Of a stretch of DNA of 64,000 nt, positions 4,509-61,364 are shown piece by piece (within the stretch, counting starts at the first letter, position 1; each line of letters starts with the position of its first letter). The notes under the pieces were generated by a model. That model was not told where the DNA came from. It saw only the letters and a program-made list of their open reading frames with translations, and made no database searches. Source of the DNA: a virus; the IMG/VR virus record IMGVR_UViG_3300027759_004177, positions 124,001-188,000 of that record; one strand, written 5' to 3'. The position numbers were made by a program, and so were the translations under genes.

Positions 4509-5894
4509 TTAGTACGTTTGTTTCCACCCCGTTATGGTCTTGGTCCAGATAGCTTTGACGTTTGACCAGGTATTTGTGGCAGTTTTTACCTTGACATTGG
4601 CTACATAACCCCAGGTATCGGCGGCTGTTTTAACAGTTGTTCCGCCACTGGATACCATTTGATAAACTACATTACCGTATGGAACACCTACACCAGTTAC
4701 TGGATCCCAATTAGAACTTGCGGCGTATCCTGTAGTTAACAGGCTTGCATTATTTCCTGTTAAAATATCGTAGTACGCATTGAGATTTCCGTATAGTATA
4801 GGATGTATAGCATTAGGTATCGGACGTCGACTAGTTAAAGACGTATATCTAGCAAACATACCAGCCATAATAGGTGCGGCAGCACTTGTCCCAGACACAG
4901 ACTCAACTCTACCTATGTTATTTCCGCTATAAGTCATCCATACTCCGTAGGCGTTCATAGCTGCGGCAATATCTGGTACACCACGACCAATATCAGAACT
5001 TATAGTACCGCTAGTTAATGTAATATTTGGCCCATAAGAAGAATTAGAAGCAAAATATTTTCTATAGGTTAATCCATTTTGCCAAGTTGGTACTGCAATC
5101 ATTGAACTTATACCACCCGAACCACCAAAACCCGGTGTATTACCAATTTGACTATTATTATAAACTGTTTCGTTTGAACGTAACGTATTACCAGAAAATA
5201 CCGATAAATTGGTGCCTCCCACTGCTATCACATTGTGATTAGTTGATGGATAGTCTACTGTTACAATATTTCCAGTTAGTGTGGCAGAACTACCATAATC
5301 TCCAGCAGCTATAAAAACTGTAATTCCCTTAGCAGAAGCATTTGACAACGGTACTGCTAAAAAATCTCCGCAGTAATAATTTGGATATACGTTACTGTAA
5401 ATTTCTCCAAGGCCCCAACTAATGGTAATGATATCACAATCTTCATCCACTGCTCGTTGTATAGCATTACCAAAACTACTAGTTCTATTGGTAATGTTTG
5501 CTAACGTAACATTAGAACTATATGTAATGGAATTGTTATTGCCTTTATACAATACAATATTAGCTTTTGGGACCATACTAGCAACACATACTAAATCTAA
5601 CATATTTTCTACATCGTTGCTAACGCCATTATAACTATTAGTAGCACCATCAACACCAACAAATGTTACAGTGGGTGCCGTTAAACTTATATTTGCTAAT
5701 GATTTACTAAGATCACTTTGACTAAACCCGCCGTCTAGACTAATAATACCAACTTTAACATTGGCTCCGGTGTTAATAGGAATATTGTATGCTGTTGCTA
5801 CCTTAGGTCCAGTAAGTAAGGAACCCTCGCTAATGCTACTAGCGTGTGGTAATGCTTCAACTGAAGTTATATACGAGGATACGTTAGCTATCAT
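4509..5894 (-). CDS. Sedolisin-like (S53) serine-carboxyl peptidase in the fibre cluster
   Basis: This 461-residue protein has the ordered landmarks of the sedolisin family. The acid pair E96 and D100 is in VENMLD, the oxyanion Asp D199 in AAGDYGSS, and the nucleophile S337 in SGTSAAAP. The C-terminal calcium-site elements are D376-I377 (YYDIL) and NWDPVTGVGVP. Upstream are the structural signatures ISWGLGE and GVPDIAA. Known sedolisins carry a long N-terminal propeptide and a signal peptide; neither is present, and the catalytic fold starts around residue 25. After residue 420 a short tail of W-containing repeats (TWGYVANVKVKTATNTW) resembles a phage fibre attachment module. It lies between two giant fibre genes, so a virion-borne enzyme that cuts a host surface or fibre protein is inferred. 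Confidence 0.82.
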   Translation of the reverse strand: MIANVSSYITSVEALPHASSISEGSLLTGPKVATAYNIPINTGANVKVGIISLDGGFSQSDLSKSLANISLTAPTVTFVGVDGATNSYNGVSNDVENMLDLVCVASMVPKANIVLYKGNNNSITYSSNVTLANITNRTSSFGNAIQRAVDEDCDIITISWGLGEIYSNVYPNYYCGDFLAVPLSNASAKGITVFIAAGDYGSSATLTGNIVTVDYPSTNHNVIAVGGTNLSVFSGNTLRSNETVYNNSQIGNTPGFGGSGGISSMIAVPTWQNGLTYRKYFASNSSYGPNITLTSGTISSDIGRGVPDIAAAMNAYGVWMTYSGNNIGRVESVSGTSAAAPIMAGMFARYTSLTSRRPIPNAIHPILYGNLNAYYDILTGNNASLLTTGYAASSNWDPVTGVGVPYGNVVYQMVSSGGTTVKTAADTWGYVANVKVKTATNTWSNVKAIWTKTITGWKQTY

Positions 5895-8235: not shown

Positions 8236-9267
8236 TTACATGCCTAGCTGTTTTGCACGTTCATAAACCTGAGCACTGGCTAGATTTTTGCCTTTTGATT
8301 CGCATTGTATGTCAAAATCTTCCCAAAATGTCAATGCCCAGTCTGTGGTTGCTTGATTCCAGTAAAAGTCTGAGTGAGCTCGCATCTTTTGTTTCTTGTA
8401 GCCCGACTCTAACAGCACAGCATGGTCCGGCGCAGAATCCACAGGATGGTCCACCAGCACATCTTCTCTGCTGACACTATAATGCATGGCTGGACGTACA
8501 CCACGCCACGAATCAATTATGCCCTTAACTCTATCATCGGTGGGTTGTATATATTCACCTGTACGTATCCAGTGGTGGTGTATGTCAAGAACCAATGCAC
8601 AGTCTTGGGCAAGTTCAAGGCTGCTGTCGACTCCCCAGGCATTTTCGTCGTTTTCGATTGTAATACAGTTTCTTGCTTCGGGAGATAACCGTCTGAGGGC
8701 ATCTCGAATACCGGCTGGACCGCGTTTACCCGAGATGTGGACATTGATCTTGAAGTCTTGAAACGTCCGACCGTATCCCATCCATCTGACCATATCTGCA
8801 TGATATTCAAACTCCTGTATTGATCTTTCTACAATGCCGGGATTCTCACTTGCCAGCACACAAAACTGTCCTGGATGAAACGATAAACGCACATCTAGTC
8901 TACGTGCTGTTTCACCAATGGGTGCAAAGATGCGTTCTAAATGGTCCTGTATTGATCTATCTTGCCACCAGTCAATCCAATCTTTTTCAGTGTAGCCTTG
9001 TAGCATTTCACTACCCAGTCGCACCATGCGTCGTTCTGGTGGTAGTGTGGCCACACGCTCGATCAGTTTTACAGCCGCAACAGCGTTGTGATTCATGATG
9101 TCCCACTGACGCTGTTCCGCTTCAAGTGGATGCTCACGCAACCAACGCATGGTGGTGCTACGTCCATTGAGATCGCGATCTACAGCATTGACTTTCATAC
9201 CGCCACATTCGCTGGGGTCATTGAGCCATTTGCAACAGAAACCAATACGCTTGAGTTTAGTGGACAA
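8236..9267 (-). CDS. uvsE: UV damage endonuclease (UvdE/UvsE family)
   Basis: Homology begins at KLKRIGFCCKWLNDP and runs to the end, covering about 343 residues, the usual size for UvdE. This TIM-barrel enzyme nicks DNA 5' of UV photoproducts. Visible family signatures are RLSFHPGQFCVLASEN, the metal-ligand strands INVHISGKRG and ITIENDENAWG, LVLDIHHHW and MHYSVSRE. The frame stays open further upstream, but that part lies inside the preceding gene. I prefer the TTG at 9267, which follows AGGAG by four bases and gives an 11-base overlap; GTG codons slightly further upstream are alternatives. A terminator follows the stop. Phage-borne repair of UV damage fits a sunlit aquatic habitat (inference). 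Confidence 0.9.
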   Translation of the reverse strand: MSTKLKRIGFCCKWLNDPSECGGMKVNAVDRDLNGRSTTMRWLREHPLEAEQRQWDIMNHNAVAAVKLIERVATLPPERRMVRLGSEMLQGYTEKDWIDWWQDRSIQDHLERIFAPIGETARRLDVRLSFHPGQFCVLASENPGIVERSIQEFEYHADMVRWMGYGRTFQDFKINVHISGKRGPAGIRDALRRLSPEARNCITIENDENAWGVDSSLELAQDCALVLDIHHHWIRTGEYIQPTDDRVKGIIDSWRGVRPAMHYSVSREDVLVDHPVDSAPDHAVLLESGYKKQKMRAHSDFYWNQATTDWALTFWEDFDIQCESKGKNLASAQVYERAKQLGM

Positions 9268-9544
9268 GATACTCCTCAAATTCCCAGTATACACTACCAC
9301 GCTTTTCTGCGTCAATGATTGCCTGCTCAAAACCTGCGTCTGCAGCGTCCAGGCAACGAAGATCAATGGCCGCATCAAGCACTTGTAATATGGCCACGCC
9401 AACTTCGTGATTGTCAGTGCCTATCAAGTTTTCACCGATATCAATCAGGCTGTCTAACACGCTGTCTAATTCGTCCATGGTCAAGTCTTCTAACCGAACA
9501 CGATTTTCTAAAAAATCTTTGATAAGTTTTTCTGGGTTTTTCAT
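9257..9544 (-). CDS. Hypothetical acidic helical protein
   Basis: This 95-residue protein is rich in Asp, Glu and Leu (MDELDSVLDSLIDIGENLIG) and looks entirely helical, with no signal peptide or membrane segment. Its ATG overlaps the stop of the upstream gene as ATGA, and its end overlaps the TTG start of the UV endonuclease, placing it in an early operon. I do not recognise a family. Its charge would suit a small inhibitor or partner protein, but nothing in the sequence identifies a target. Confidence 0.6.
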   Translation of the reverse strand: MKNPEKLIKDFLENRVRLEDLTMDELDSVLDSLIDIGENLIGTDNHEVGVAILQVLDAAIDLRCLDAADAGFEQAIIDAEKRGSVYWEFEEYLVH

Positions 9545-22306: not shown

Positions 22307-23013
22307 TTTGCGAGATAATACTGCTCGACTCGTTTGTTCCATTCCACACAGTAGTGATCAAATTCTGCGCCTTCCAGCACAAATTCCTGATAAACAGGGG
22401 TGTCAAACACGCCGGGTTCTAGCTCTTTTGGTTGCTGACACATAAGTATTACACCTTTTTTGATGTCGGTTCCATACATGTTATTGTGGGCTTGTGCGTA
22501 GGCCGCCAATTGTACAAAATAATCGCCAATGTATTCACGCTTTTTGAGTTTGTTGGTTTGTTTGTAATCCATGATGGCAGGTGCATCGTTGTGTACACCC
22601 ACGCTGTCTGTGGTGCCGGCATATAACCCACTATAATACACAGGCACTTCGACTCCCCACACTTCGTTGACTTGAGCGAAGCCTTCAAGAATAACTTGTG
22701 CAGCCATGAACCATGAAGGCTGTGCAAACGGATTACCGGGCAGTTCTTTCATTTCACCAGTTTTAACATAGTGCTCTAAGTAGCTGTGCATACGTGTTCC
22801 GCGATTGGCAGCTTCTGTGGTGATCTGTTGAGCACGTTGTTCGCCTACTGCCCGTTTCCAATTGGCCAAGGCCGCTTTGCTTTCTGCAGATTTGGTCTTG
22901 TCTAGGATTGTAGTGACACTGGGTACTTTGCTACCGTCAGGCAAACAGTAATGTCGCTTGCCGTTGATTGTTTCTCTATCACATGGTGTGTAATTGTATT
23001 TTTCTATCAGCAT
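22303..23013 (-). CDS. PD-(D/E)XK exonuclease (RecB-like)
   Basis: This 236-residue protein has RecB-type nuclease motifs: GTRMHSYLEHYV (His/Glu helix), the Asp of AGTTDSVG, PAIMDYKQT as the D-x-K strand, and YFVQLAAYAQAH as the Q-x3-Y helix. The arrangement resembles Cas4/MGME1-type single-strand exonucleases common in T4-like marine phages, which act in recombination or end processing. It overlaps the IscA gene by one base, and these nucleases can carry an iron-sulfur cluster. No conserved C-terminal Cys set is visible here, so a cluster is not supported. Confidence 0.82.
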   Translation of the reverse strand: MLIEKYNYTPCDRETINGKRHYCLPDGSKVPSVTTILDKTKSAESKAALANWKRAVGEQRAQQITTEAANRGTRMHSYLEHYVKTGEMKELPGNPFAQPSWFMAAQVILEGFAQVNEVWGVEVPVYYSGLYAGTTDSVGVHNDAPAIMDYKQTNKLKKREYIGDYFVQLAAYAQAHNNMYGTDIKKGVILMCQQPKELEPGVFDTPVYQEFVLEGAEFDHYCVEWNKRVEQYYLAN

Positions 23014-23339
23014 TATATTCTAAATGATTCGCCGCAACCGCAACGATCCTTTTCTGCGGTATTACGGAATTCAAATCCTTCGTTGAGTCCTTGTCGTACA
23101 TAGTCTACTTCTAAATCTTTAAAATAAGGCAAATCTTTTTCAGATATATAAACACAAAATGTTTCAAATAATTTAGTGTATCCCGGGTCTAAGTCGGTGA
23201 CTTTATCTAAATATTCCAGTGTGTAGGCCAAGCCGCTGCAACCTGTGGTACGCACACCTATGCGTATGCCTCGCCCTTGTCCACGACGCTTTAAATTTTC
23301 TTGTATTTTTTGTTGTGCAGATTCAGTTACTGCTATCAT
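23013..23339 (-). CDS. iscA: A-type iron-sulfur carrier (IscA/HesB family)
   Basis: This 108-residue protein has the three conserved cysteines of A-type carriers: C34 in TTGCSGLAY, and C100 and C102 in RCGCGESF. ATCs receive Fe-S clusters from a scaffold and deliver them to apo-enzymes. It overlaps the IscU-type scaffold gene by 17 bases, so both proteins are made together. The only iron-sulfur clients visible in this window are two radical SAM enzymes. Phage-borne HesB/IscA-like genes are known from aquatic virus genomes; the pairing with a full scaffold is notable. Confidence 0.93.
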   Translation of the reverse strand: MIAVTESAQQKIQENLKRRGQGRGIRIGVRTTGCSGLAYTLEYLDKVTDLDPGYTKLFETFCVYISEKDLPYFKDLEVDYVRQGLNEGFEFRNTAEKDRCGCGESFRI

Positions 23340-23715
23340 CTGGATGTTTTTTCTTATAATCTTCTATAGCCGCTTTGATTGCATCTTCGGCCAAGATCGA
23401 ACAGTGGATCTTGACCGGCGGTAACGCGAGTTCTTCTGCAATCTGAGTATTTTTAATTTCCATTGCGGCATCAAGCGTTTTGCCTTTGACCCATTCCGTA
23501 ACAAGACTTGAACTGGCAATCGCAGATCCACATCCGTACGTTTTGAACTTAGCGTCTTGAATAATCCCATTTTCAACCCTTATTTGAAGTTTCATCACAT
23601 CGCCGCAGGCTGGAGCACCCACCATGCCAGTACCCACATTGACGTCACCGGCATCCATCTTGCCTACATTGCGTGGATTTTCATAATGATCAATTACTTT
23701 GTCTGAATATGCCAT
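23323..23715 (-). CDS. iscU: Iron-sulfur cluster scaffold IscU
   Basis: This 130-residue protein is full length for IscU. It has C37-x-D39 (APACGDVM), C62 (TYGCGSAIASSS) and H104-C105 (VKIHCSILAEDAI), the complete cluster-binding set. The LPPVK motif at 98-102 is the site recognised by the HscA chaperone, so the phage scaffold could use the host HscA/HscB and IscS. ATG follows AAGGAG, and a TTGACA-17-TAAAAT promoter lies 18 bases upstream, marking this as an early operon iscU-iscA-exonuclease. Confidence 0.95.
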   Translation of the reverse strand: MAYSDKVIDHYENPRNVGKMDAGDVNVGTGMVGAPACGDVMKLQIRVENGIIQDAKFKTYGCGSAIASSSLVTEWVKGKTLDAAMEIKNTQIAEELALPPVKIHCSILAEDAIKAAIEDYKKKHPDDSSN

Positions 23716-23765: not shown

Positions 23766-24191
23766 TTATTTCTTAGCGGCTCGTTTGGCCATACTGCTAA
23801 CTACCTTGGCCGGATTGCCGGGTGCGGCTACTTCAGCACCAAGTGGGTCAGAGTTGTCAAGTTCAGATTCCGGTGGAGCCAAGTACACATACTTGACAGC
23901 ACTATGGTCATCATCTTTGATGTCTTTGATTAAGGCCTTGACAGAATCATTATGCTGGTATGCTGCATCTAACGCTGCAAAATTAAATGCTTCGTTGCCA
24001 GGAATGTTTCTTACTTGATTGATGATTGTGTCAACTTTGACACGTGGGGTTACTGCGTTGCTTTGTTCGGCTTCATTGCGTAGCCATTCTAAGGCAGTGA
24101 TCAAAGCAGAGTCACCACGTGTCTCTGCTTCATCTTCAATTACTTCGTCTACTAGTTCTATAGACTCTAGGATGATATCCCGAATACGCAT
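23766..24191 (-). CDS. Putative head-internal protein with capsid-targeting-like N-terminus
   Basis: This 141-residue acidic protein begins MRIRDIILESIELVDEV. The IILE-S junction fits the (L/I)-x-E consensus cut by T4 prohead protease gp21, and the leader resembles other N-termini in this window. The rest is helical (ALITALEWLRNEAEQ, DSVKALIKDIKDDD) with a Pro/Ala-rich, basic tail (SSMAKRAAKK). It is TAATG-coupled to the upstream 234-residue gene. A core or internal head protein role is inferred; no enzyme motif is seen. Confidence 0.5.
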   Translation of the reverse strand: MRIRDIILESIELVDEVIEDEAETRGDSALITALEWLRNEAEQSNAVTPRVKVDTIINQVRNIPGNEAFNFAALDAAYQHNDSVKALIKDIKDDDHSAVKYVYLAPPESELDNSDPLGAEVAAPGNPAKVVSSMAKRAAKK

Positions 24192-24895
24192 TAACGACGC
24201 TCGCGGCCTAGTTCTTCTTCTCCGCCAACTGCTGCATCTGTGGCATCAAAACCGTCAGCTTCAGGAGCGGCACCTAGGTCAGCATCTAGATCACTGTCCA
24301 TACCACCTTCAGGGGGAACGGCACCAGCAAGACCTTGATCAGCACCCAGGCCCATGTCCATTGGAGCAGCAACTTGCTCACCACTGAGTTGACGAACTGC
24401 TGTGTCTGAACTCTCACGTGCTGTGCTCAATGCTTGATACAGGTCTGCCAACATTGGGCTGATACCTGTTTTGAATGTTTCAGCTTGCTCACTGCCAATT
24501 TGATCACGGATTGTGTCAATCAGGGCAGGTACTTGTTCGTTTTGAATCTTAGAGATTTTCTCTAACATGTCTTGTACAGAGTCAACAATGTCTTTGGCGG
24601 CTAGAACAGCTTCGCTACGACCTAGTTCACTTTCAAACAAGCCTTGTTCAGAATTCATCCACTTGTCCAGTCCTTCTTTGACCAGCATAAGTTCCATATA
24701 CTTAGAATTCTTTTCAGCGGTGTGTGCGCCAAATGATTTTTTAATTTGTGTGATGTTTTCACCAAGAGCTTTTGCTAAACGCTGTGCTTTAGCATAAGTT
24801 AAATTGTCATAATCAACTGAAAAACCAAAGCGGCTTTCCATGACTTTGTTAATCTTTTGTGGTGTTACTTCGGTTCGCATTTCAGAAAGTCTCAT
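24191..24895 (-). CDS. Helical, acidic-tailed protein, scaffold-like
   Basis: This 234-residue protein starts MRLSEMRTEVTPQ. A long helical region (residues 15-170, with KNSKYMELMLVKEGLDKWMN and VDSVQDMLEKISKIQNEQVP) is followed by a Gly/Ala/Asp-rich low-complexity tail ending EEELGRERR. Composition and layout are reminiscent of phage scaffold or prohead core proteins, though no specific homologue is recognised. It lies in a run of coupled minus-strand genes. Confidence 0.5.
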   Translation of the reverse strand: MRLSEMRTEVTPQKINKVMESRFGFSVDYDNLTYAKAQRLAKALGENITQIKKSFGAHTAEKNSKYMELMLVKEGLDKWMNSEQGLFESELGRSEAVLAAKDIVDSVQDMLEKISKIQNEQVPALIDTIRDQIGSEQAETFKTGISPMLADLYQALSTARESSDTAVRQLSGEQVAAPMDMGLGADQGLAGAVPPEGGMDSDLDADLGAAPEADGFDATDAAVGGEEELGRERR

Positions 24896-25961: not shown

Positions 25962-26391
25962 CGATTGTAACTTGTTTAATGTATATATTTTTAATGGTGC
26001 CATAGGGATAAAAGATGGGCAACATAAAACGGGCAGTTTCTTCTAGGCCAGTGACAATGGGCACTTGTTCAATATCTTGCAACAATCCTGCCAGGGGTGT
26101 TCCAGCAAGATCGTATACTCCTTCTCGTTCCACAGTCCAACTCCAGGTCCATATTTTTTGAGTGCCAGTGTAGAAGTCACCAAATTCAGCAACACCGATG
26201 TCTTCAAGGGTTGAAGTTATGGGTTCTTGTATGTTCTGCGGCTGTGTACGCAGGCCAATGCATTGTAGTAGTGTTTCCCAGTTGCGTTGTTGATTGCGTT
26301 CTGCGTTGTCAAGATCCTGGCTACGAATGACACCAGTGGCAGTGATATCTACTAGAGTGAATCCTTGGAAGAAATATAAGTTTGATGACAT
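25957..26391 (-). CDS. T4-like virion-associated protein
   Basis: The likely product is 144 residues starting MSSNLYFFQGFTLVDITATGV; the frame upstream of this ATG passes through the promoter box and is not expected to be translated. Landmarks are ERNQQRNWETLLQCIGLRTQ and FYTGTQKIWTWSWTVERE. The pattern recalls a conserved structural protein of marine T4-like phages. A late box ends only seven bases before the ATG, so a very short or absent leader is implied. Position among virion genes supports a structural role. Confidence 0.6.
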   Translation of the reverse strand: MSSNLYFFQGFTLVDITATGVIRSQDLDNAERNQQRNWETLLQCIGLRTQPQNIQEPITSTLEDIGVAEFGDFYTGTQKIWTWSWTVEREGVYDLAGTPLAGLLQDIEQVPIVTGLEETARFMLPIFYPYGTIKNIYIKQVTIE

Positions 26392-26399
26392 GATAAACA

Positions 26400-26407
26400 T
26401 ATTTATC
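26400..26407 (-). promoter_or_regulatory. T4-type late promoter box
   Basis: Minus-strand GATAAATA followed by TG, directly after a terminator hairpin and just ahead of ATG at 26391. Confidence 0.6.
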
Positions 26408-26414
26408 GGCCACA

Positions 26415-26442
26415 AAAAAAGCACTGATTAAAGTGCTTTTTT
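26415..26442 (-). terminator. Rho-independent terminator after virion paralogue B
   Basis: Eleven-pair stem AAAAAAGCACT/AGTGCTTTTTT with a six-base loop, followed by further T on the minus strand. It ends the unit of the gene at 26461-26877. Confidence 0.9.
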
Positions 26443-26460
26443 GTTTGTAGTTGTAAACTA

Positions 26461-26877
26461 TTAGGCTAGTTTGAAACCACCGGAACTAGTTACAGTAACT
26501 TGAGCTGCACCACCGTAAACGTTGCCTGCACCACCAATGTTGCCACTGGCTTGTAGGATTGTTTGTAGTTCAGTTGCACTCATAGCACTACGCTCAGCTA
26601 GGATACTAACTTGTTGTGCGCCACTTGTACCAGCATCAACTTGATACATAACTGGTTGAGCATTACTACTCAATGTACGGATAATTGTTTCTACTGCACC
26701 ACCTGTGCCTAGCTCTGCAGCTAAGTTTGCTGTACCAGCAATGAATGAAACTTTGAAACATGTAACTGGTGCATTCAAACCAGTGTTGATGATAGCTGCG
26801 TTTGCGTTTAGTGTACCATAAGTACCAACGTTACGAACTTGTTGTGCATCACCTGCACGACGTGTAAAAATTGCCAT
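26461..26877 (-). CDS. Small virion protein, tandem paralogue B
   Basis: This 138-residue protein (MAIFTRRAGDAQQVRNVGT...) is clearly paralogous to the gene at 26981-27403. Both share an N-terminal MAI-x-TR, the segment LNANAAIINTGLNAP, the motif ANLAAELG, a V-E-x-I-x-x-x-S-x-NA stretch, and an ending SGGFKLA/TGGIKLA. The protein is small, Ala/Thr-rich and beta-like. It has its own late box, a perfect AAGGAG ribosome site and its own terminator, suggesting strong late expression as a decoration or other abundant virion protein (inference). Confidence 0.7.
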   Translation of the reverse strand: MAIFTRRAGDAQQVRNVGTYGTLNANAAIINTGLNAPVTCFKVSFIAGTANLAAELGTGGAVETIIRTLSSNAQPVMYQVDAGTSGAQQVSILAERSAMSATELQTILQASGNIGGAGNVYGGAAQVTVTSSGGFKLA

Positions 26878-26917
26878 TTTAAATCTCCTTAATATATTTG
26901 CGTGTTACGCATAATAA

Positions 26918-26925
26918 TATTTATG
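26918..26925 (-). promoter_or_regulatory. T4-type late promoter box
   Basis: Minus-strand CATAAATA followed by TT, 40 bases upstream of ATG at 26877 and directly after a terminator. Confidence 0.65.
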
Positions 26926-26934
26926 CCGGCCACA

Positions 26935-26961
26935 AAAAAAGCGTAACTGGTACGCTTTTTT
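26935..26961 (-). terminator. Rho-independent terminator after virion paralogue A
   Basis: Stem AAAAAAGCGTA/TACGCTTTTTT with a five-base loop, followed by TGTGGCC and then the late box of the next gene. Confidence 0.9.
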
Positions 26962-26980
26962 GTTTATAGTTGTCGAACTA

Positions 26981-27403
26981 TTAGGCTAGCTTGATACCGC
27001 CAGTACTTGTAACAACTGCTGTAGAGGCAGTAACTGTACTGAATGCACCGATGTTAGAACCTAGAGCACGGATTGCGTTTTGCAATGATGTGTCATCTAC
27101 CCAGCTTGAACGCTCAACAATAACGCTCAACTGTGATTGAGCAGCTGCGTCAACTTGGTAAGCAACAACTGTTGCATTGGCAGAAATTGTGTTGAGGATT
27201 GCTTCAACAGCACCTGCTGTACCATTTGTACCACGACCTAGTTCAGCGGCCAAGTTACTTGTTACACCTAGTGTACCAATTTTGTAAGCTGCGATTGGAC
27301 TATTTAGACCAACGTTGATGATTGCAGCATTAGCTTGAATGCTTTGTGCGCCAACGTTTTTAACTGCTTCTGTCGTACCTTTGAATCTTGTTTGGATTGC
27401 CAT
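26981..27403 (-). CDS. Small virion protein, tandem paralogue A
   Basis: This 140-residue protein (MAIQTRFKGTTEAVKNVGA...) is the partner of the gene at 26461-26877, sharing the AAIIN-x-GLN core, SNLAAELGRG, ATVVAYQVDA and STGGIKLA. It is preceded by a perfect TATAAATA late promoter and AAGGAG, and followed by its own hairpin terminator. Identical layout around both copies implies duplication of the whole promoter-gene-terminator cassette. The product is presumably an abundant virion surface or head protein. Confidence 0.7.
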   Translation of the reverse strand: MAIQTRFKGTTEAVKNVGAQSIQANAAIINVGLNSPIAAYKIGTLGVTSNLAAELGRGTNGTAGAVEAILNTISANATVVAYQVDAAAQSQLSVIVERSSWVDDTSLQNAIRALGSNIGAFSTVTASTAVVTSTGGIKLA

Positions 27404-27444
27404 TTTTAAATCTCCTTAATTTATTTGCGAATCACGCATACTTT

Positions 27445-27452
27445 TATTTATA
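27445..27452 (-). promoter_or_regulatory. Perfect T4-type late promoter
   Basis: Minus-strand TATAAATA followed by AAA, 41 bases upstream of the ATG at 27403; an exact match to the T4 late consensus. Confidence 0.8.
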
Positions 27453-27462
27453 CAAGTTGATG

Positions 27463-28539
27463 TTATTTGTTGAAATGACTTTGCCTAAACCCCGTGCTGA
27501 CCAGCTTATAAGGGCCTTGTGTGGGACTATTAAATACAAACCCTTCCCCTCCAGCGCCGCCTGGGGTAGACATAGCTATATTTTTAACCTGCTGTGTAAA
27601 TACTCGATCTAGGTAGTCTTTTAGTTGATAAATGCTGTTATAAATCATTTTAAGAGCGTTCCAGCCCTTGATATTTCTATATAAAATACCGCCTTGATTA
27701 TCGCCTATTAGTTTTTTATAGTTAGCAGGATCGTTTTGTTTTAGCCACTCGTCCACTGATAGATCAGTCTGGCGTGTTATTTTTTGATTGAAATACTGTT
27801 CTAGTTTTGCTCTAGCAGATTTGGTGCCCAGTTGATTTAAAAAAGTATCTACTAGATTTCCGTATTGACTGAGAATTGTTTCTGCATTTTTGTACAGTTG
27901 CGTGAGCTGTCTATTATAGGTGCCTAGTCCAAATTGATTGTCTATATTTGGCCCCAACAAGGCCACGTTGCCAGAGCCTTCCAGTCCTTCGCCGTTCCAG
28001 GGTCGTTCATTCATGCTGTGTACAAATATCACTGCATTTTTACCTGCCAGTGCCTGACCTGCTTTGCTGTTGGCCGGTATCGCATATTGTGCTGTGGGCC
28101 CACTTAAAACATAATTTCCTTTTACGGGATTGGACAAAGTAAAATAGTCGCCTTTAAAAGTCACTGGCTGAGAGCCAACACTTTGTTCTAAGCTAGTCCA
28201 TATGATTTCAAGTTTTTTATATAAATCTGGACGTTGGGTTCCAGACTTTTTATTTGTATCGTATGCAATCCAGTCTTGTACACTATGAGCCAATATGCCT
28301 TTTGGATACATGTACTTGTCTGAACAAAAGAACTGTCCTCGAGCGTCGCGGCCAAAGAATAGTGCTACTTCGCCGTCCCACTTGATTGTTATCTGTTCGG
28401 GATTGGTGATAATTTCTTTGAGAGTGTCAACTGCTCGTTTGGCTTCGGCACTACTGGTAAAGATAGCATTTTCAGGATGGGGTATTCTGGGATTGTCCGC
28501 AGTACCTTCAAATAAGAAATCAACAAAATCCAATCTCAT
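27463..28539 (-). CDS. Ligase/nucleotidyltransferase-fold protein (KxDG), head-targeting-like N-terminus
   Basis: This 358-residue protein (ATG at 28539, ATGA-coupled to the upstream nucleotidyltransferase gene) carries elements of the covalent nucleotidyltransferase fold of ATP/NAD ligases and capping enzymes. Motif I is K53-W-D-G in ITIKWDGEVALFFGR, a middle strand is VTFKGDYF, motif IV is E332-G-F-V-F, and motif V is GPYKLVSTG with K345. Residues 1-12 (MRLDFVDFLFEG) contain an L-F-E-G site like the T4 capsid-targeting peptides. A packaged DNA or RNA ligase-like enzyme is inferred. An inactive adenylate-binding protein is possible. Confidence 0.65.
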   Translation of the reverse strand: MRLDFVDFLFEGTADNPRIPHPENAIFTSSAEAKRAVDTLKEIITNPEQITIKWDGEVALFFGRDARGQFFCSDKYMYPKGILAHSVQDWIAYDTNKKSGTQRPDLYKKLEIIWTSLEQSVGSQPVTFKGDYFTLSNPVKGNYVLSGPTAQYAIPANSKAGQALAGKNAVIFVHSMNERPWNGEGLEGSGNVALLGPNIDNQFGLGTYNRQLTQLYKNAETILSQYGNLVDTFLNQLGTKSARAKLEQYFNQKITRQTDLSVDEWLKQNDPANYKKLIGDNQGGILYRNIKGWNALKMIYNSIYQLKDYLDRVFTQQVKNIAMSTPGGAGGEGFVFNSPTQGPYKLVSTGFRQSHFNK

Positions 28540-29309
28540 AGGTTGTGTCCCATAGTTCTGAACCAAGCAGCACTTCCTGGAGTGATATCTTCTGGTAATG
28601 TCAGCATGCCTTTGGCCACAGCTTGGTGTGCCTGTGCCAATTTACCTTCACGGTCTGGATCACTTTTTAGTGCGGCCATGACTGTGGCTACAGAGTCTAG
28701 ATCTGCGGCTCGAGCACCAGGGTTCAACAATATTTTTGCGATTTCGTTACGGTCACGGCTGACCATGGTGCTGTCAGCATCACGATTATTGAGCGTACCG
28801 GCAAAGGCATCCACCTTCATGTTCTTAAAGTTGGCAATGCTGTTCAACAAAATATACAGGTGTGCGGCTTTGAATTTGGGGTCAGCATACATGCCACGTG
28901 GGCCGTGCTGATGCCAAGCAGCCACACGCTTGGCGTCGGCTATGATCATGAGATCTACCTGTGCATGACGCTGTTTTCCATCTTGAGCCGAGTAAGGAAC
29001 ATCCACATGTACGTTACGACCTTTGACTGCTGTTTTGAATCCTTTGGCCTGCAAGTATTGTGCCAGGGCCTGCTTGGCACCTGTGGCATTGTCTGATCCA
29101 AAGTTTTTTACAGCAGCACGCTCATCGATAAAAAGATCAATGTCACCACTTTCAACCTTGTAACCAGCAGAACCTATGTCGGCTATAATTTTGTTTTGCA
29201 AAGCGGAAGGTAATTCTAATTTGACTGTGTTGATCACTGTGGCAACATCTTCTTTGGCCACAGCTGACGTGTTGTCGAATACTTTTCCGCCTTCATATAG
29301 ATACATCAT
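28536..29309 (-). CDS. Polymerase-beta-type nucleotidyltransferase, head-targeting-like N-terminus
   Basis: This 257-residue protein has the pol-beta superfamily signature: the G-S pair in DIGSAGYKVESG followed by D56-I-D58 in SGDIDLFID, with a further acidic strand (AQVDLMI, D119, or VHVDVP, D103) for the third carboxylate. It starts MMYLYEGGKVF, where L-Y-E-G fits the (L/I)-x-E head-protease consensus. It overlaps both neighbours by ATGA, in the same unit as the ligase-fold protein. Possible activities include tRNA or DNA nucleotidyl transfer or protein AMPylation; sequence alone does not decide. Confidence 0.7.
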   Translation of the reverse strand: MMYLYEGGKVFDNTSAVAKEDVATVINTVKLELPSALQNKIIADIGSAGYKVESGDIDLFIDERAAVKNFGSDNATGAKQALAQYLQAKGFKTAVKGRNVHVDVPYSAQDGKQRHAQVDLMIIADAKRVAAWHQHGPRGMYADPKFKAAHLYILLNSIANFKNMKVDAFAGTLNNRDADSTMVSRDRNEIAKILLNPGARAADLDSVATVMAALKSDPDREGKLAQAHQAVAKGMLTLPEDITPGSAAWFRTMGHNL

Positions 29310-30025
29310 GCACCCGTCTGTCTTGGTTGTTGTGTAGTTCTGTTGTAATACACCTGTTGAGTACTTGAATGCTGTTCTAATTTTCTAATAGATTCTGGAT
29401 CAGTCACAACTTCCCCGGCGTCATTTACCCAACGATTGTTATCTTCGTCCTTGGTCCATATTTCGCCTTGTTTGTCCTTGACCGTGATTGGTTGCACATT
29501 GCCCTTGAGTGCAGTTACAGGTTTAGCCGGTGTTGGTTTTACCGCGGCTATGTATTGATTCAGTGATTGAGTCAACGGTTCCGGTATGGGTTTTCCGCCG
29601 GGATAACTTGTCCAAGCGCCGGTAGTGGGATTCAACACGTACTCATTTTTTTTATAAAATACTTTCAAAGGAGGACCTTCGTCGCTGATACTAAATTGTT
29701 GCAGGTGTGGAGATAAAGCAGGTTTGTTGTTTTGGTTAATGTCTGCTGCTTGACGTGCATCTTGTGTGGAAAAAACATTAGAAAGAATACTGCTGATATA
29801 TGCTGTTACAGATTTAGGGTCAACTGATTGAGGTAATGCAGGTGTAAATAATTGCTTTCCACTTTTATCTTTGGCCAAGTCCATTCCAAACTGTTGTAAT
29901 CCCTGTGGAGTTTTATTTTGCTGGGGGAGTTGATTCCATTCATCCGTCCAAGTTTTTGTTGCTCGTTGGACTCGTTGATCAACAGTTTCTGCCTCCGTCA
30001 ATTGAATCACATCTTTAATCTTCAC
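29306..30025 (-). CDS. Hypothetical protein with capsid-targeting-like leader
   Basis: This 239-residue protein starts MKIKDVIQLTEAETVDQ, strongly resembling the MK-x5-IAE leader of T4 internal head proteins, with L-T-E as the likely gp21 cut site. The rest is Gln/Pro/Thr-rich with little predicted fold, apart from a possible WW-like stretch (GEIWTKDEDNNRWVNDAGE) and EYVLNPTTGAWTSYPGG. It leads into the nucleotidyltransferase and ligase-fold genes by ATGA overlaps. An internal, ejected head protein is inferred. Confidence 0.55.
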   Translation of the reverse strand: MKIKDVIQLTEAETVDQRVQRATKTWTDEWNQLPQQNKTPQGLQQFGMDLAKDKSGKQLFTPALPQSVDPKSVTAYISSILSNVFSTQDARQAADINQNNKPALSPHLQQFSISDEGPPLKVFYKKNEYVLNPTTGAWTSYPGGKPIPEPLTQSLNQYIAAVKPTPAKPVTALKGNVQPITVKDKQGEIWTKDEDNNRWVNDAGEVVTDPESIRKLEQHSSTQQVYYNRTTQQPRQTGA

Positions 30026-30263
30026 GTTTTATTTTCCTAACACCGCGTTTGAATTTGTCTGGCTCTTGAGTGCGAATACTGTTAATCAGTCTACGTTCCA
30101 ACTCAGCAGCTGCTTCGGGTTCGTAGTTTTCACGTATGTAATTGATCAAGTTTATAGCACCGGCGATCACATTAGAGGCACGACTTTCCACAAGATTCTC
30201 ACGATCTTTGTGTACTAACATGGTGTCTAGTTCGTCAAGTATGCTACGTGCTCGCTTTTGCAA
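30015..30263 (-). CDS. Hypothetical helical protein (TTG start)
   Basis: This 82-residue protein starts at TTG 30263, preceded by GGAG at a six-base spacing. It is mostly helical: RARSILDELDTMLVHKDRENLVESRA, NVIAGAINLINYIRENYEP, AAAELERRLINSI, then a basic C-terminus (KFKRGVRKIKRED). Similar short helical proteins are common near helicase genes of T4-like phages, but no function is known to me. A late box at 30284-30291 would make it the first gene of a late unit that includes the head-targeted proteins. Confidence 0.55.
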   Translation of the reverse strand: MQKRARSILDELDTMLVHKDRENLVESRASNVIAGAINLINYIRENYEPEAAAELERRLINSIRTQEPDKFKRGVRKIKRED

Positions 30264-30283
30264 GATATGCTCCAGTAATGTAG

Positions 30284-30291
30284 TATTTATG
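30284..30291 (-). promoter_or_regulatory. T4-type late promoter box
   Basis: Minus-strand CATAAATA followed by CT, 20 bases upstream of the TTG at 30263; it directly follows the helicase gene end. Confidence 0.6.
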
Positions 30292-30296
30292 CGGGG

Positions 30297-31721
30297 TTAT
30301 TCAGACTTGCTTTTGAGTCCAGCAATCATTTGCTTTAATTTATTGCTTTCTACGCTGGAGCCCGGCGGTGGGGCAGTATCTTTTTCTAGGTTCCATCCTT
30401 CTTTGACCACTGGATTAAGTGTGGTTGTGGGTTTGAGTTGATTTAAGATATTGGCCGCGGGTCTAAATTGACCCCCTGAACTTTCCTGTCCTTCTTCTCC
30501 GGGATCAGTGATACGCATGGTTTCGATGTTGTACTCCAAGTCGATCTTCATACCAACACCTGTACTACTGCGACTCTTCATACACTGGATTTGATAGCGT
30601 CCACGTTCTTTCATGGCTCTGCTTGTAAAGATACCAAACACGTTGTCGGCTGTGTTGATCTTTGAAATACCACCAGCAATATGACTGTGGTCAAACTCAA
30701 TTTCTTCTACCGCACTACGATTCAACTGCGAAGCTGTCACAAACAACACATTGAGTTCTTGCGATAAATTACGCAGTTCTTCTGCCACATATTTGTCTTT
30801 GATAAACTGATCATTGGGATTGACTTTGACACTCACAGGCATTACCAAGTCCAAGTAGTCGACCATCACAAAGTCTACCTTGTTATTAGTTTGTATTTGA
30901 TACTCTTTGATAAAGCTACGGATGTCATTTACGTTGCTCTGTGCCGGCAAGGCCTTAATACGATACTTGCCAGACTTCTTGCCCACCATCTTGACTTTGA
31001 GTTCTGTGGTTTCAATGTCCTTGCGTATGTCTTTAGTGCCTGTGCTGGTCAACATGGCGTCTGTTCTTAGGGCTACAAGTTCTTCACTCAGTTCTAAACT
31101 CACATACACACCACTCAGTCCTTGTTGTAACCAACTCAGTGCTATGTTCATCATGACCAAACTCTTGCCTGAACCTGAACCACCAGCAAAGATATTGAGT
31201 TCTCCACGACTCATGCCGCCGTACAAGATCTTGTCCATGGTGGGCCAACCTGTGCTCACTTGTCCGCCACTATTATAGTATTTGTCAATACGTGCTTTGG
31301 GATCAGCAAAATAATCTGTACCCAAGTCTTTGGTCAGGCCAATTTGTACCGCGTCTTTGATCAGTTTTTCCACAGGATCGTAATCGCCTTCTTCCAACAG
31401 GTCAGCGGCTTTGAGAATAGCACGGCTAAGTTCTTCCTTGCGACTAAATCCTTCAAACTCCTGCATAAACCATTCTTGATGTCCATCAATGGCTGTGGGA
31501 ATGGGTCTAAGTTCTACGCCAGTCACTGCTTGGATCTGTTCGTATGTGGGAAGTGTTTTATATTCAGCCGAGTGCGTGGCAATAAACTTGGCCACATCAC
31601 GCAGACTGCGATCAAAATTTTCTGGATTGTAAATGTTTTGCACCCGCACATAACTCTGTGCGTCCTGCATCATTAGTTCTAAAAATAATTTTTGTATTTC
31701 GGGTGTGTAATCAGTGGCCAT
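30297..31721 (-). CDS. Replicative DNA helicase (DnaB/T4 gp41 family)
   Basis: This 474-residue protein has an N-terminal helical domain (residues 1-155) and a RecA-like motor domain. Walker A is GGSGSGKS (about 180-187), Walker B is VDFVMVDYLDLV (about 277-285), with a QLNRSA-type sensor stretch (TASQLNRSAVEE) and an arginine-containing KSRSSTGVG near the end. It unwinds the fork as a hexamer with the primase encoded immediately upstream. A Pro-rich C-terminal extension follows residue 430. Two bases separate it from the primase gene, so they form a unit. Confidence 0.93.
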   Translation of the reverse strand: MATDYTPEIQKLFLELMMQDAQSYVRVQNIYNPENFDRSLRDVAKFIATHSAEYKTLPTYEQIQAVTGVELRPIPTAIDGHQEWFMQEFEGFSRKEELSRAILKAADLLEEGDYDPVEKLIKDAVQIGLTKDLGTDYFADPKARIDKYYNSGGQVSTGWPTMDKILYGGMSRGELNIFAGGSGSGKSLVMMNIALSWLQQGLSGVYVSLELSEELVALRTDAMLTSTGTKDIRKDIETTELKVKMVGKKSGKYRIKALPAQSNVNDIRSFIKEYQIQTNNKVDFVMVDYLDLVMPVSVKVNPNDQFIKDKYVAEELRNLSQELNVLFVTASQLNRSAVEEIEFDHSHIAGGISKINTADNVFGIFTSRAMKERGRYQIQCMKSRSSTGVGMKIDLEYNIETMRITDPGEEGQESSGGQFRPAANILNQLKPTTTLNPVVKEGWNLEKDTAPPPGSSVESNKLKQMIAGLKSKSE

Positions 31722-44339: not shown

Positions 44340-45962
<1,623 letters not shown>

Positions 45963-46259
45963 TTATTCTCCTTGAATAACAGCGAGGATATCTTCCTCTT
46001 TTAAAATTAATAGTTCTTCTCCGTCGACTTTGACAGTCTGTCCAGAAAATTTACCAAATAAGACTCGATCTTCGACAGCGACACCAAGTGCAGAAATCTC
46101 ACCTGTGGTTGCATTGCGTTTACCTGGTCCAACAGCAAGTACTCGTCCTTGATCGGCTTTCTCTGTGGCTGCATCAGGAATAAAGATGCCGCCCTTGGTT
46201 ACAGTTTCACTGTCAACACGGCGAACTACGACCCTATCAGATAGCGGTTTTAGATTCAT
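45963..46259 (-). CDS. groS: Co-chaperonin GroES
   Basis: This 98-residue protein starts [16 protein letters not shown] (ATG at 46259 after AAGGAG with a six-base spacer; an adjacent ATG lies one codon upstream). The mobile loop [15 protein letters not shown] carries the G-G-I-F-I-P element that binds GroEL, followed by [12 protein letters not shown] and [13 protein letters not shown]. It lies four bases before groL. Two promoters precede it, one sigma70-like and one late-type. Confidence 0.96.
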
Positions 46260-46299
46260 CATAATCTCCTTTAAATGAAATGATATAAAATAGTTTTTT

Positions 46300-46328
46300 A
46301 TTGTACTACAAGATTGTGGCATTGTCAA
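46300..46328 (-). promoter_or_regulatory. Sigma70-like promoter of groES-groEL
   Basis: Minus-strand TTGACA, 17-base spacer, TACAAT, 40 bases upstream of groES. Confidence 0.7.
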
Positions 46329-46343
46329 CAACTACCACAAATT

Positions 46344-60348: not shown

Positions 60349-61335
60349 TTATGCTTTGATAATTCCGTCGATTAGGCCTGGATAGAAGAAGTCGCGATAC
60401 TTGTCGTATAGCGGAGCAACAGCTTGTTTGAATTTATCTGTATCTTCTTTGTTTAGTTCTGTGTAAGTTACGCCAATGTCGCTGTGATCTTTTTTAGCAG
60501 CAAACGCTTCAGCTTCCTCAACTGACCACTTGCGTTCTAGGCGACTAGCGTATTTGCATGCTTCGCTAAACTTGGCTTGTTCATCTTCGCTTAATGTAGC
60601 TAAGAATTTGTTGCCAATAATAATACTAGTCAAGAACAAATTGTGTTTGGTGTTGACCATGTACCTCTTGCTTGTATTCTTGAACTGTGCTAGGTACCGT
60701 GGAATAGTTGTTTCGAGAGCATCGGCACCAATGCCTTCTTGTTTGAAAAAGTCTGGGTCAAGATATAGATCTCGCATTGAAAAAACTTGCGGAATAGCAC
60801 CAATGGCTTCGCAAGTGTCAACAGTTACAGGATTATTTGTTGTGGCGAACCCAATACCGCTTAGACTATCTAAATCGCTGATTGGTTTTTCGCTAACGAT
60901 ACAGCGGAATCCACCTGAATATGTAAACTCCATACCTATAGCTGGACTTTTGTCTTTTAGGCCGTCTAACATCTTACGACCAATTGGGCCTTCTAGTACA
61001 CGTTTTGCATGATCGTGATCTTGGAAAATAAACGGCATTTCCAATGCCAAAAACTCCGGGCTATGCCAACGAGCTAAATCAACAACATGCATTTGACTCA
61101 TTTGAATATCGCCGGAGTCAATTAACATCATTGGGTCAGCTTTAAAAGATAATGATGAATCTCTCATTTTTTTGTCAGGATATTTGTTGCTGTATTCTTT
61201 TAAAGTAAAAATTTCTACTTCAAATTTGCCGTCGGTTAATTCGGCAATTTTTTCTTTAAATGCTTCGGCTGTGCGTAGGAACAAATTTATAGGTTCGTGT
61301 GCGATTAACCAGGTGATTTTTTTCTTTTGATTCAT
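60349..61335 (-). CDS. TRAP-type solute-binding protein (DctP family) without signal peptide
   Basis: The product is 328 residues from ATG 61335 (GGAG upstream). Family landmarks are WLIAHEPINLFLRTAEAFKEKI, MLIDSGDIQMSQMHVVDL, EFTYSGGFRCIVSEKPI, DLDSLSGIGFATTNNPVTVDTCEAIG and DALETTIPRYLAQF. DctP proteins bind C4-dicarboxylates and related acids in the periplasm and hand them to a TRAP membrane pair. Here the domain starts at residue 5 with no export signal, so the protein should stay in the cytoplasm or act otherwise. A perfect TATAAATA late box precedes it. No TRAP membrane components are seen. Confidence 0.88.
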   Translation of the reverse strand: MNQKKKITWLIAHEPINLFLRTAEAFKEKIAELTDGKFEVEIFTLKEYSNKYPDKKMRDSSLSFKADPMMLIDSGDIQMSQMHVVDLARWHSPEFLALEMPFIFQDHDHAKRVLEGPIGRKMLDGLKDKSPAIGMEFTYSGGFRCIVSEKPISDLDSLSGIGFATTNNPVTVDTCEAIGAIPQVFSMRDLYLDPDFFKQEGIGADALETTIPRYLAQFKNTSKRYMVNTKHNLFLTSIIIGNKFLATLSEDEQAKFSEACKYASRLERKWSVEEAEAFAAKKDHSDIGVTYTELNKEDTDKFKQAVAPLYDKYRDFFYPGLIDGIIKA

Positions 61336-61364
61336 GGGATTCTCCAATAGGATTTTGTATTATA

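Follow-up and report, generated by a model that had tools for sequence, protein, structure and literature searches.

A putative head-packaged enzyme cassette with T4-type leaders in a T4-superfamily jumbo phage

The window analysed here is a stretch of 64,000 nucleotides that spans positions 124001-188000 of a virus record 356,865 bases long (IMGVR_UViG_3300027759_004177). It contains three coupled genes on the minus strand, here called A, B and C, which encode a protein without convincing family match, a pol-beta superfamily nucleotidyltransferase (NTase) and a DUF6267 protein with a ligase-type active site. The three genes probably form a cassette of enzyme cargo that is packaged into the phage head and processed by the gp21-type prohead protease. 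We have good confidence that at least the gene A product and the DUF6267 protein are packaged and cut, and judge it likely, with less assurance, that the NTase is carried along into the head. A role in RNA repair is the least certain part of the explanation and is put forward tentatively. The cassette shares its genome with a T4-type major capsid protein gp23 (E=5e-99) and a gp21-type prohead protease (G000 266441-267073; PF03420, E=3e-25), the homologue that an earlier note on this DNA had advised seeking outside the window. The presence of both identifies the phage as a T4-superfamily jumbo phage.

Leaders, junction sites and allele exchange

The open reading frames lie exactly where the earlier note had placed them (Table 1), with 4-base overlaps at 29306-29309 (A/B) and 28536-28539 (B/C). 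Its observation that all three products begin with a short leader containing an (L/I)-x-E site also holds. The leaders read MKIKDVIQLTE/A (gene A), MMYLYE/G (gene B) and MRLDFVDFLFE/G (gene C), where the slash marks the predicted cut, and each protein has a single [LI]xE[AGSN] site, at residue 9, 4 and 9, respectively. The bare motif is weak evidence. It occurs within about the first 14 residues in 58 of the 422 genes of the genome, compared to 36-41 expected, and was rejected as proof of packaging because it is too common. A fuller T4-like leader pattern, with K or R near the start followed by an acidic and two hydrophobic residues and Glu, is found in 10 of 443 genes, where about 0.5 would be expected. 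Since this pattern was picked after the leaders had been seen, and since gene starts in the counts were set by a simple rule, we rely on independent tests instead.

In T4, targeting depends on residues 4 and 7 of the leader and processing on residues 8 and 10; the gp21 cut follows L/I-x-E (PMC9026906). T4-type cargo with a capsid-targeting sequence (CTS) is expected in a genome with a gp21-type protease and core proteins rich in [L/I]xE, and this genome has both: [LI]xE[AGSN] sites number 9 in gp22 (1.7 expected), 7 in gp21 (0.8), 4 in gp23 (1.0) and 2 in the portal (1.4). The products of genes A and C also start with a leader of the expected length, about 10 residues, whose final [L/I]-x-E precedes a small residue; the NTase has such a leader only in part (6 residues). 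With respect to hydrophobic or aromatic residues at positions -6 and -3 from the Glu, gene C conforms (F5 and F8 before E11). Gene A of the window departs (D5 and Q8 before E11), whereas most of its relatives fit (I3, V6, E9), and the short NTase leader does not extend to position -6.

The evidence for the leaders is strong because four observations coincide, namely an invariant Glu, bodies swapped behind the leader, cut sites at fusion junctions and an allelic cassette. The relatives compared all belong to a single phage group derived from a metagenome, and they do not count as independent of each other. The leader Glu is present in 22 of 22 DUF6267 proteins, which are 22-98% identical to that of the window; most have Leu or Ile at -2 and Phe or Tyr at -6, and the linker behind the leader varies in length and sequence. 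In one relative (L024) the DUF6267 leader reads MKSYHEYLAE/A, compared to MKTYQEFIAE/A in T4. Among named phages, DUF6267 leaders read MMKFTQFLAE/S (DLP6), MMLDFKNFITE/Q (C48C1), MINFSKYITE/D (Melnitz) and MYNDLLVE/D (HTVC008M).

In gene A, the leader is more constant than what follows it. The bodies of its relatives form at least seven clusters without blastp similarity to each other, and most relatives begin MKI[NK][ED][IV][IVL]xE despite these unrelated bodies. DNA homology to L003, L008, L035 and L036 spans the preceding gene UP2 and ends at 30002-30006, in leader codon 7-8. Gene A overlaps UP2 by 11 bases (30015-30025); its codons 1-4 are hence constrained by UP2, whereas residues 5-9 lie outside the overlap. 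One gene A counterpart (L028:5649-7997) encodes 782 residues, with the leader MKTNEIVTE/G, a long Ala/Pro/Thr repeat and a LysM/endolysin-type PHROG match.

Cut sites also occur where proteins are joined. Gene A and the NTase form a single protein in L041-L045, where the join reads [LI]-x-E/GGN, with LKE/GG or INE/GG in place of the NTase leader. In L013, a different leader-bearing domain is followed in the same protein by a second pol-beta-like NTase (GS...GDIDL...QIDF), and the join is LYE/GGW. The same cut site is kept in two independent fusions, as selection for cleavage would predict. A second leader-bearing NTase of this kind (E/GGWDTT...GS...GDIDL...Q[VI]DFMW) is encoded at L011:8771-9784, L039:4985-6004 and L013:3279-4556. 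It sits between the first NTase and DUF6267 in many relatives, and the window phage lacks it at this place. A profile comparison of the two NTases gave no match, though both show GS...GDxD and a later QVD or QID motif.

These data bear on the view that chance or composition produced the leaders, which would then be ordinary N-termini that contain a common tripeptide and are held in place in part by the upstream overlap. The frequency of [LI]xE near N-termini and the overlap of gene A with UP2 speak for it. Against this, the Glu is invariant in DUF6267 proteins of only 22-50% identity, gene A leader residues beyond the overlap are conserved while the bodies are not, and the two fusions have sites at their junctions. 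We therefore regard a chance origin as very improbable.

The NTase is the harder case. Its leader consists of the cleavage half only, and it may enter the head with its neighbour, since moreover two relatives (L040/L046) have no leader. Head cargo could accordingly comprise gene A and DUF6267 only, with MMYLYE a relic of a former fusion of the NTase to gene A, and the NTase either staying in the producing cell or entering only by binding gene A. The half leader, the MGGN start of L040/L046 and the existence of fused versions with a cut site at the join agree with this proposal. However, apart from the L040/L046 type, every distinct NTase whose N-terminus can be read retains [L/I]xE followed by Gly or Ser, and a functionless relic should decay. 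We consider the relic proposal possible but unlikely, and favour carriage of the NTase into the head.

Genes A, B and C form an allelic exchange cassette. Compared to the otherwise near-identical L010, flanking proteins are 92-100% identical, but A, B and C only 75%, 71% and 43%. The comparison to L003 gives the reverse picture, with flanking genes mostly at 69-78%, some higher, and B and C at 95% and 97%. With L035, C is 98% identical, B 71%, and A has no match. Each switch of alleles is seen in one relative or another, and the breaks lie near gene borders. Such exchange is as expected for host-facing cargo, and the variable internal-protein genes of T4 relatives resemble it (PMC9026906).

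Active sites of the NTase and the DUF6267 protein

The earlier note had pointed out pol-beta and ligase motifs in two of the proteins, and these have stood up to comparison. In the NTase, G46, S47, G55, D56, D58 and D119 are invariant across 30 relatives and I57 varies; the protein has the GS...GDxD motif, the third Asp and the palm fold of the pol-beta superfamily. Its AlphaFold2 model (pLDDT 82) is similar in structure to DNA polymerase lambda (E=1.6e-6, probability 1.0, TM 0.43-0.49), although model quality is poor in the loop that follows the GS motif. Searches for named phages with this NTase found none at E 1e-5 or E 0.01. DUF6267 lies downstream at 31 of the 31 NTase loci that are long enough to tell.

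In the DUF6267 protein, K53, D55, G56, G130-D131, E332-G-F-V and K345 are invariant in 22 relatives, and W54 varies. It contains the KxDG motif, the motif III acidic residue, EGxV and the motif V lysine of covalent nucleotidyltransferases. The OB domain of ATP-dependent DNA ligases is missing, as the chain ends 13 residues after K345. Because of this, and because the phage encodes a separate ordinary DNA ligase elsewhere, an RNA-ligase-like or other end-modifying role is favoured over ordinary DNA nick sealing, which is unlikely. Of the earlier description as a ligase, the active-site residues remain, in a protein that belongs to a family without assigned function (PF19782, PHROG 455) and lacks the OB domain; the suggested ligation of nicks in DNA is improbable. 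The ligase-type active site and the head-packaging leader proposed here go beyond the family description. In a viral library, the protein matches cytidyltransferase fusions (e.g. of S-PM2) and uncharacterised phage proteins; residues 1-18 of its model are of low confidence (pLDDT <50). A search for solved structures by sequence yielded nothing useful, and a literature search on DUF6267 found no paper.

Virion precedent, delivery and possible role

The closest precedent for the arrangement comes from cyanophages. In S-SM1, the T4-GC190 cytidylyltransferase carries the leader MKKFSAFLNE/A and adjoins DUF6267 (T4-GC71) behind gp41, and T4-GC190 has been detected by mass spectrometry in purified virions (PMC3037559). 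In S-PM2, the cytidylyltransferase is fused behind DUF6267 and has no leader, and it was not seen in the virion (PMC3037559). The contrast fits leader-dependent packaging, though the two studies may differ in depth. The cyanophage pair resembles the cassette in its place behind the helicase, in the position of DUF6267 beside a nucleotidyltransferase and in the CTS-like leader, but its partner enzyme is cytidylyltransferase-like rather than a pol-beta NTase, and the leader is absent from the cyanophage DUF6267 proteins that were read. A literature search on capsid targeting in cyanophages found nothing beyond a review. The older S-PM2 record (AJ630128, L077) splits DUF6267 and the cytidylyltransferase, and the newer one (LN828717, L076) has one frame of about 591 residues. 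The records differ by a few bases in length there, and one may hold a sequencing error.

The cassette also resembles T4 IPI-IPIII and Alt. Common to both are an N-terminal leader of 10-12 residues, the pattern [YFI]-x-x-[FI]-[LIV]-x-E followed by a small residue, a genome that encodes gp21, and hypervariable, exchangeable cargo. The cassette differs in its predicted cargo, a pol-beta NTase and a DUF6267 protein, and in the additional cut sites at fusion junctions. Taken comparatively, the earlier idea of T4-type packaging and gp21 cleavage is well supported by the leaders, the junctions, the protease with its [L/I]xE-rich scaffold and the cyanophage neighbour found in virions; the NTase, with its half leader, fits it less well.

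Several findings weigh against the packaged-cargo explanation. The Glu is missing from some gene A leaders (L013, L017, L024), no such leader is seen on the cyanophage DUF6267 proteins that were read, and the NTase leader is without a targeting half, with L040/L046 beginning at MGGN. For the NTase, neither the RlaP model nor any Pfam family gives a match above cut-off. Many of the top structural hits of DUF6267 in the PDB are DNA or RNA ligases, but none of these matches is significant (best E=0.13), and a profile comparison with the phage's own DNA ligase gave no match.

If the explanation is right, T4-type N-terminal leaders would bring the gene A product and the DUF6267 protein into the prohead core, and the NTase would enter directly or with gene A. 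gp21 would cut after the leader Glu and free the mature proteins, which would remain in the head and enter the host along with the phage DNA. The NTase would then add nucleotides at its pol-beta active site, and DUF6267 would form a covalent lysine-nucleotide intermediate at its ligase-type active site. Both could work on the ends of nucleic acids ahead of phage gene expression, and the reading that we tentatively prefer is that they repair host or phage RNA which host defences have cut. Cooperation of RlaP-type pol-beta NTases with RNA ligases has been described as a principle of phage RNA repair (PMC7824862), and the cassette likewise couples a pol-beta NTase to a ligase-type enzyme in jumbo phages. 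It differs from these pairs in that its NTase misses the RlaP model and DUF6267 misses known RNA ligase models, and in its leaders, which suggest virion delivery. A scan of the entire phage genome with the RlaP model (PF10127) gave no match up to E = 1, and models of canonical RNA ligases gave none either.

Instead of repairing RNA, the packaged enzymes might modify host RNA or proteins for takeover, by nucleotidylylation, tRNA tailing or end blocking. Stand-alone pol-beta NTases are capable of modifying tRNA or protein, and the exchange of alleles is typical of host-facing genes. T4 Alt, moreover, is an injected host-modifying enzyme (PMC9026906). The invariant ligase-type residues and the strict pairing of NTase and DUF6267 fit end processing better, and we think a takeover function rather unlikely. 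It is also conceivable that the leader-bearing proteins are structural or core parts of the prohead (scaffold helpers), packaged but inactive in the host, as UP2 and the gene at 24191-24895 match PHROG virion structural families. Two of the cassette proteins, however, carry complete invariant catalytic sets that structure alone would not preserve, which makes this alternative improbable.

In its most general form, our tentative proposal is that T4-superfamily jumbo phages inject a pre-made pair of nucleotide-adding and ligase-type enzymes, released by the head protease from leader-tagged and sometimes fused polyprotein precursors, which would repair defence-made breaks before the first phage gene expression, with cargo swapped behind a constant leader. 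Packaged repair enzymes would then be a direct way to survive RNA- or DNA-cutting defences in the first minutes of infection. DUF6267, present in about 470 phage records and nearly always annotated as hypothetical, would gain a function class and a delivery route. The leader would serve as a socket for exchangeable cargo, and as it can be searched for, injected proteins would become predictable from sequence alone. Head-delivered enzyme cargo with T4-type leaders would be suggested far beyond enteric phages, in freshwater jumbo phages and marine myoviruses.

Other features of the window and genome

Table 1. Features of the cassette and nearby leader-bearing genes (window positions)
Feature	Position	Strand	Basis
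Exchange cassette	27474..30002		low identity to otherwise near-identical L010; switches near 27474, 28525, 29309, 30002
Gene A ('UP'), 239 aa, GTG start; leader plus low-complexity, fast-evolving body; putative adapter or cargo	29306..30025	-	same leader before at least 7 body clusters
Gene A leader, residues 1-11, probable CTS, site LTE/A	29993..30025	-	homology to relatives ends inside leader
Gene B, 257-aa pol-beta superfamily NTase	28536..29309	-	conserved catalytic residues and predicted fold
Gene B short leader MMYLYE/GG, protease-site half only	29292..29309	-	relatives' alignment
Gene B catalytic motif GSAGYKVESGDID, residues 46-58	29136..29174	-	conservation
Gene B third catalytic Asp, D119 of QVDLM	28953..28955	-	conservation
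Gene C, 358-aa DUF6267 (PF19782) protein, ligase-type nucleotidyltransferase motifs	27463..28539	-	Pfam E=8e-14, 52.2 bits vs cut-off 27
Gene C leader, probable CTS	28507..28539	-	E11 invariant; F5, L9 >90%
Motif I, K53-W-D-G, predicted nucleotidylated lysine	28372..28383	-	conservation
Motif IV, E332-G-F-V-F	27532..27546	-	conservation
Motif V lysine K345	27505..27507	-	conservation and model
UP2, 82 aa, PHROG 11854 'virion structural protein'	30015..30263	-	E=4e-16; constant gene in front of cassette
DnaB-like (gp41-type) helicase	30297-31721		precedes UP2 and cassette
Leader-bearing gene, MRLSEMRTE/V, PHROG 14154 'virion structural protein'	24191..24895	-	profile match and leader pattern
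Leader-bearing gene, MRIRDIILE/S	23766..24191	-	leader pattern

No RNA families were found within window positions 26000-31000, and searches of defence-system and NCBIfam libraries gave no match.

Further leader-bearing proteins are encoded outside the window. One, a phage Fe/Mn superoxide dismutase (G000:C1:53893-54435; L049:15893-16435, minus strand; Pfam E=6e-19), has a 20-residue N-terminal extension, MDLRETLDLLE/AKS, and is possibly another head-packaged enzyme. A cluster of small proteins at G000:C1:221236-224854 (L055) has the leaders MKIVEIVQE/S, MKIKEIVQE/G, MKTFKDYVSD/A and MMKPFQTYIAE/L, the last in a protein of PHROG 14802 ('virion structural').

Within the window, all on the minus strand, adjoining IscU-like (NifU_N, E=2e-52) and IscA-like (Fe-S_biosyn) genes at 23013-23715 represent phage-encoded iron-sulphur cluster assembly. 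A GroEL gene at 44340-46331 (Pfam E=6e-75) is adjoined by a GroES-like gene, and a DctP-type (TRAP transporter) solute-binding protein, in which a signal peptide is not obvious, is encoded at 60349-61347 (Pfam E=1e-36). Among tail-like genes, there are a UvdE-type UV endonuclease (8236-9402) and a subtilase-family protease (4509-5894).

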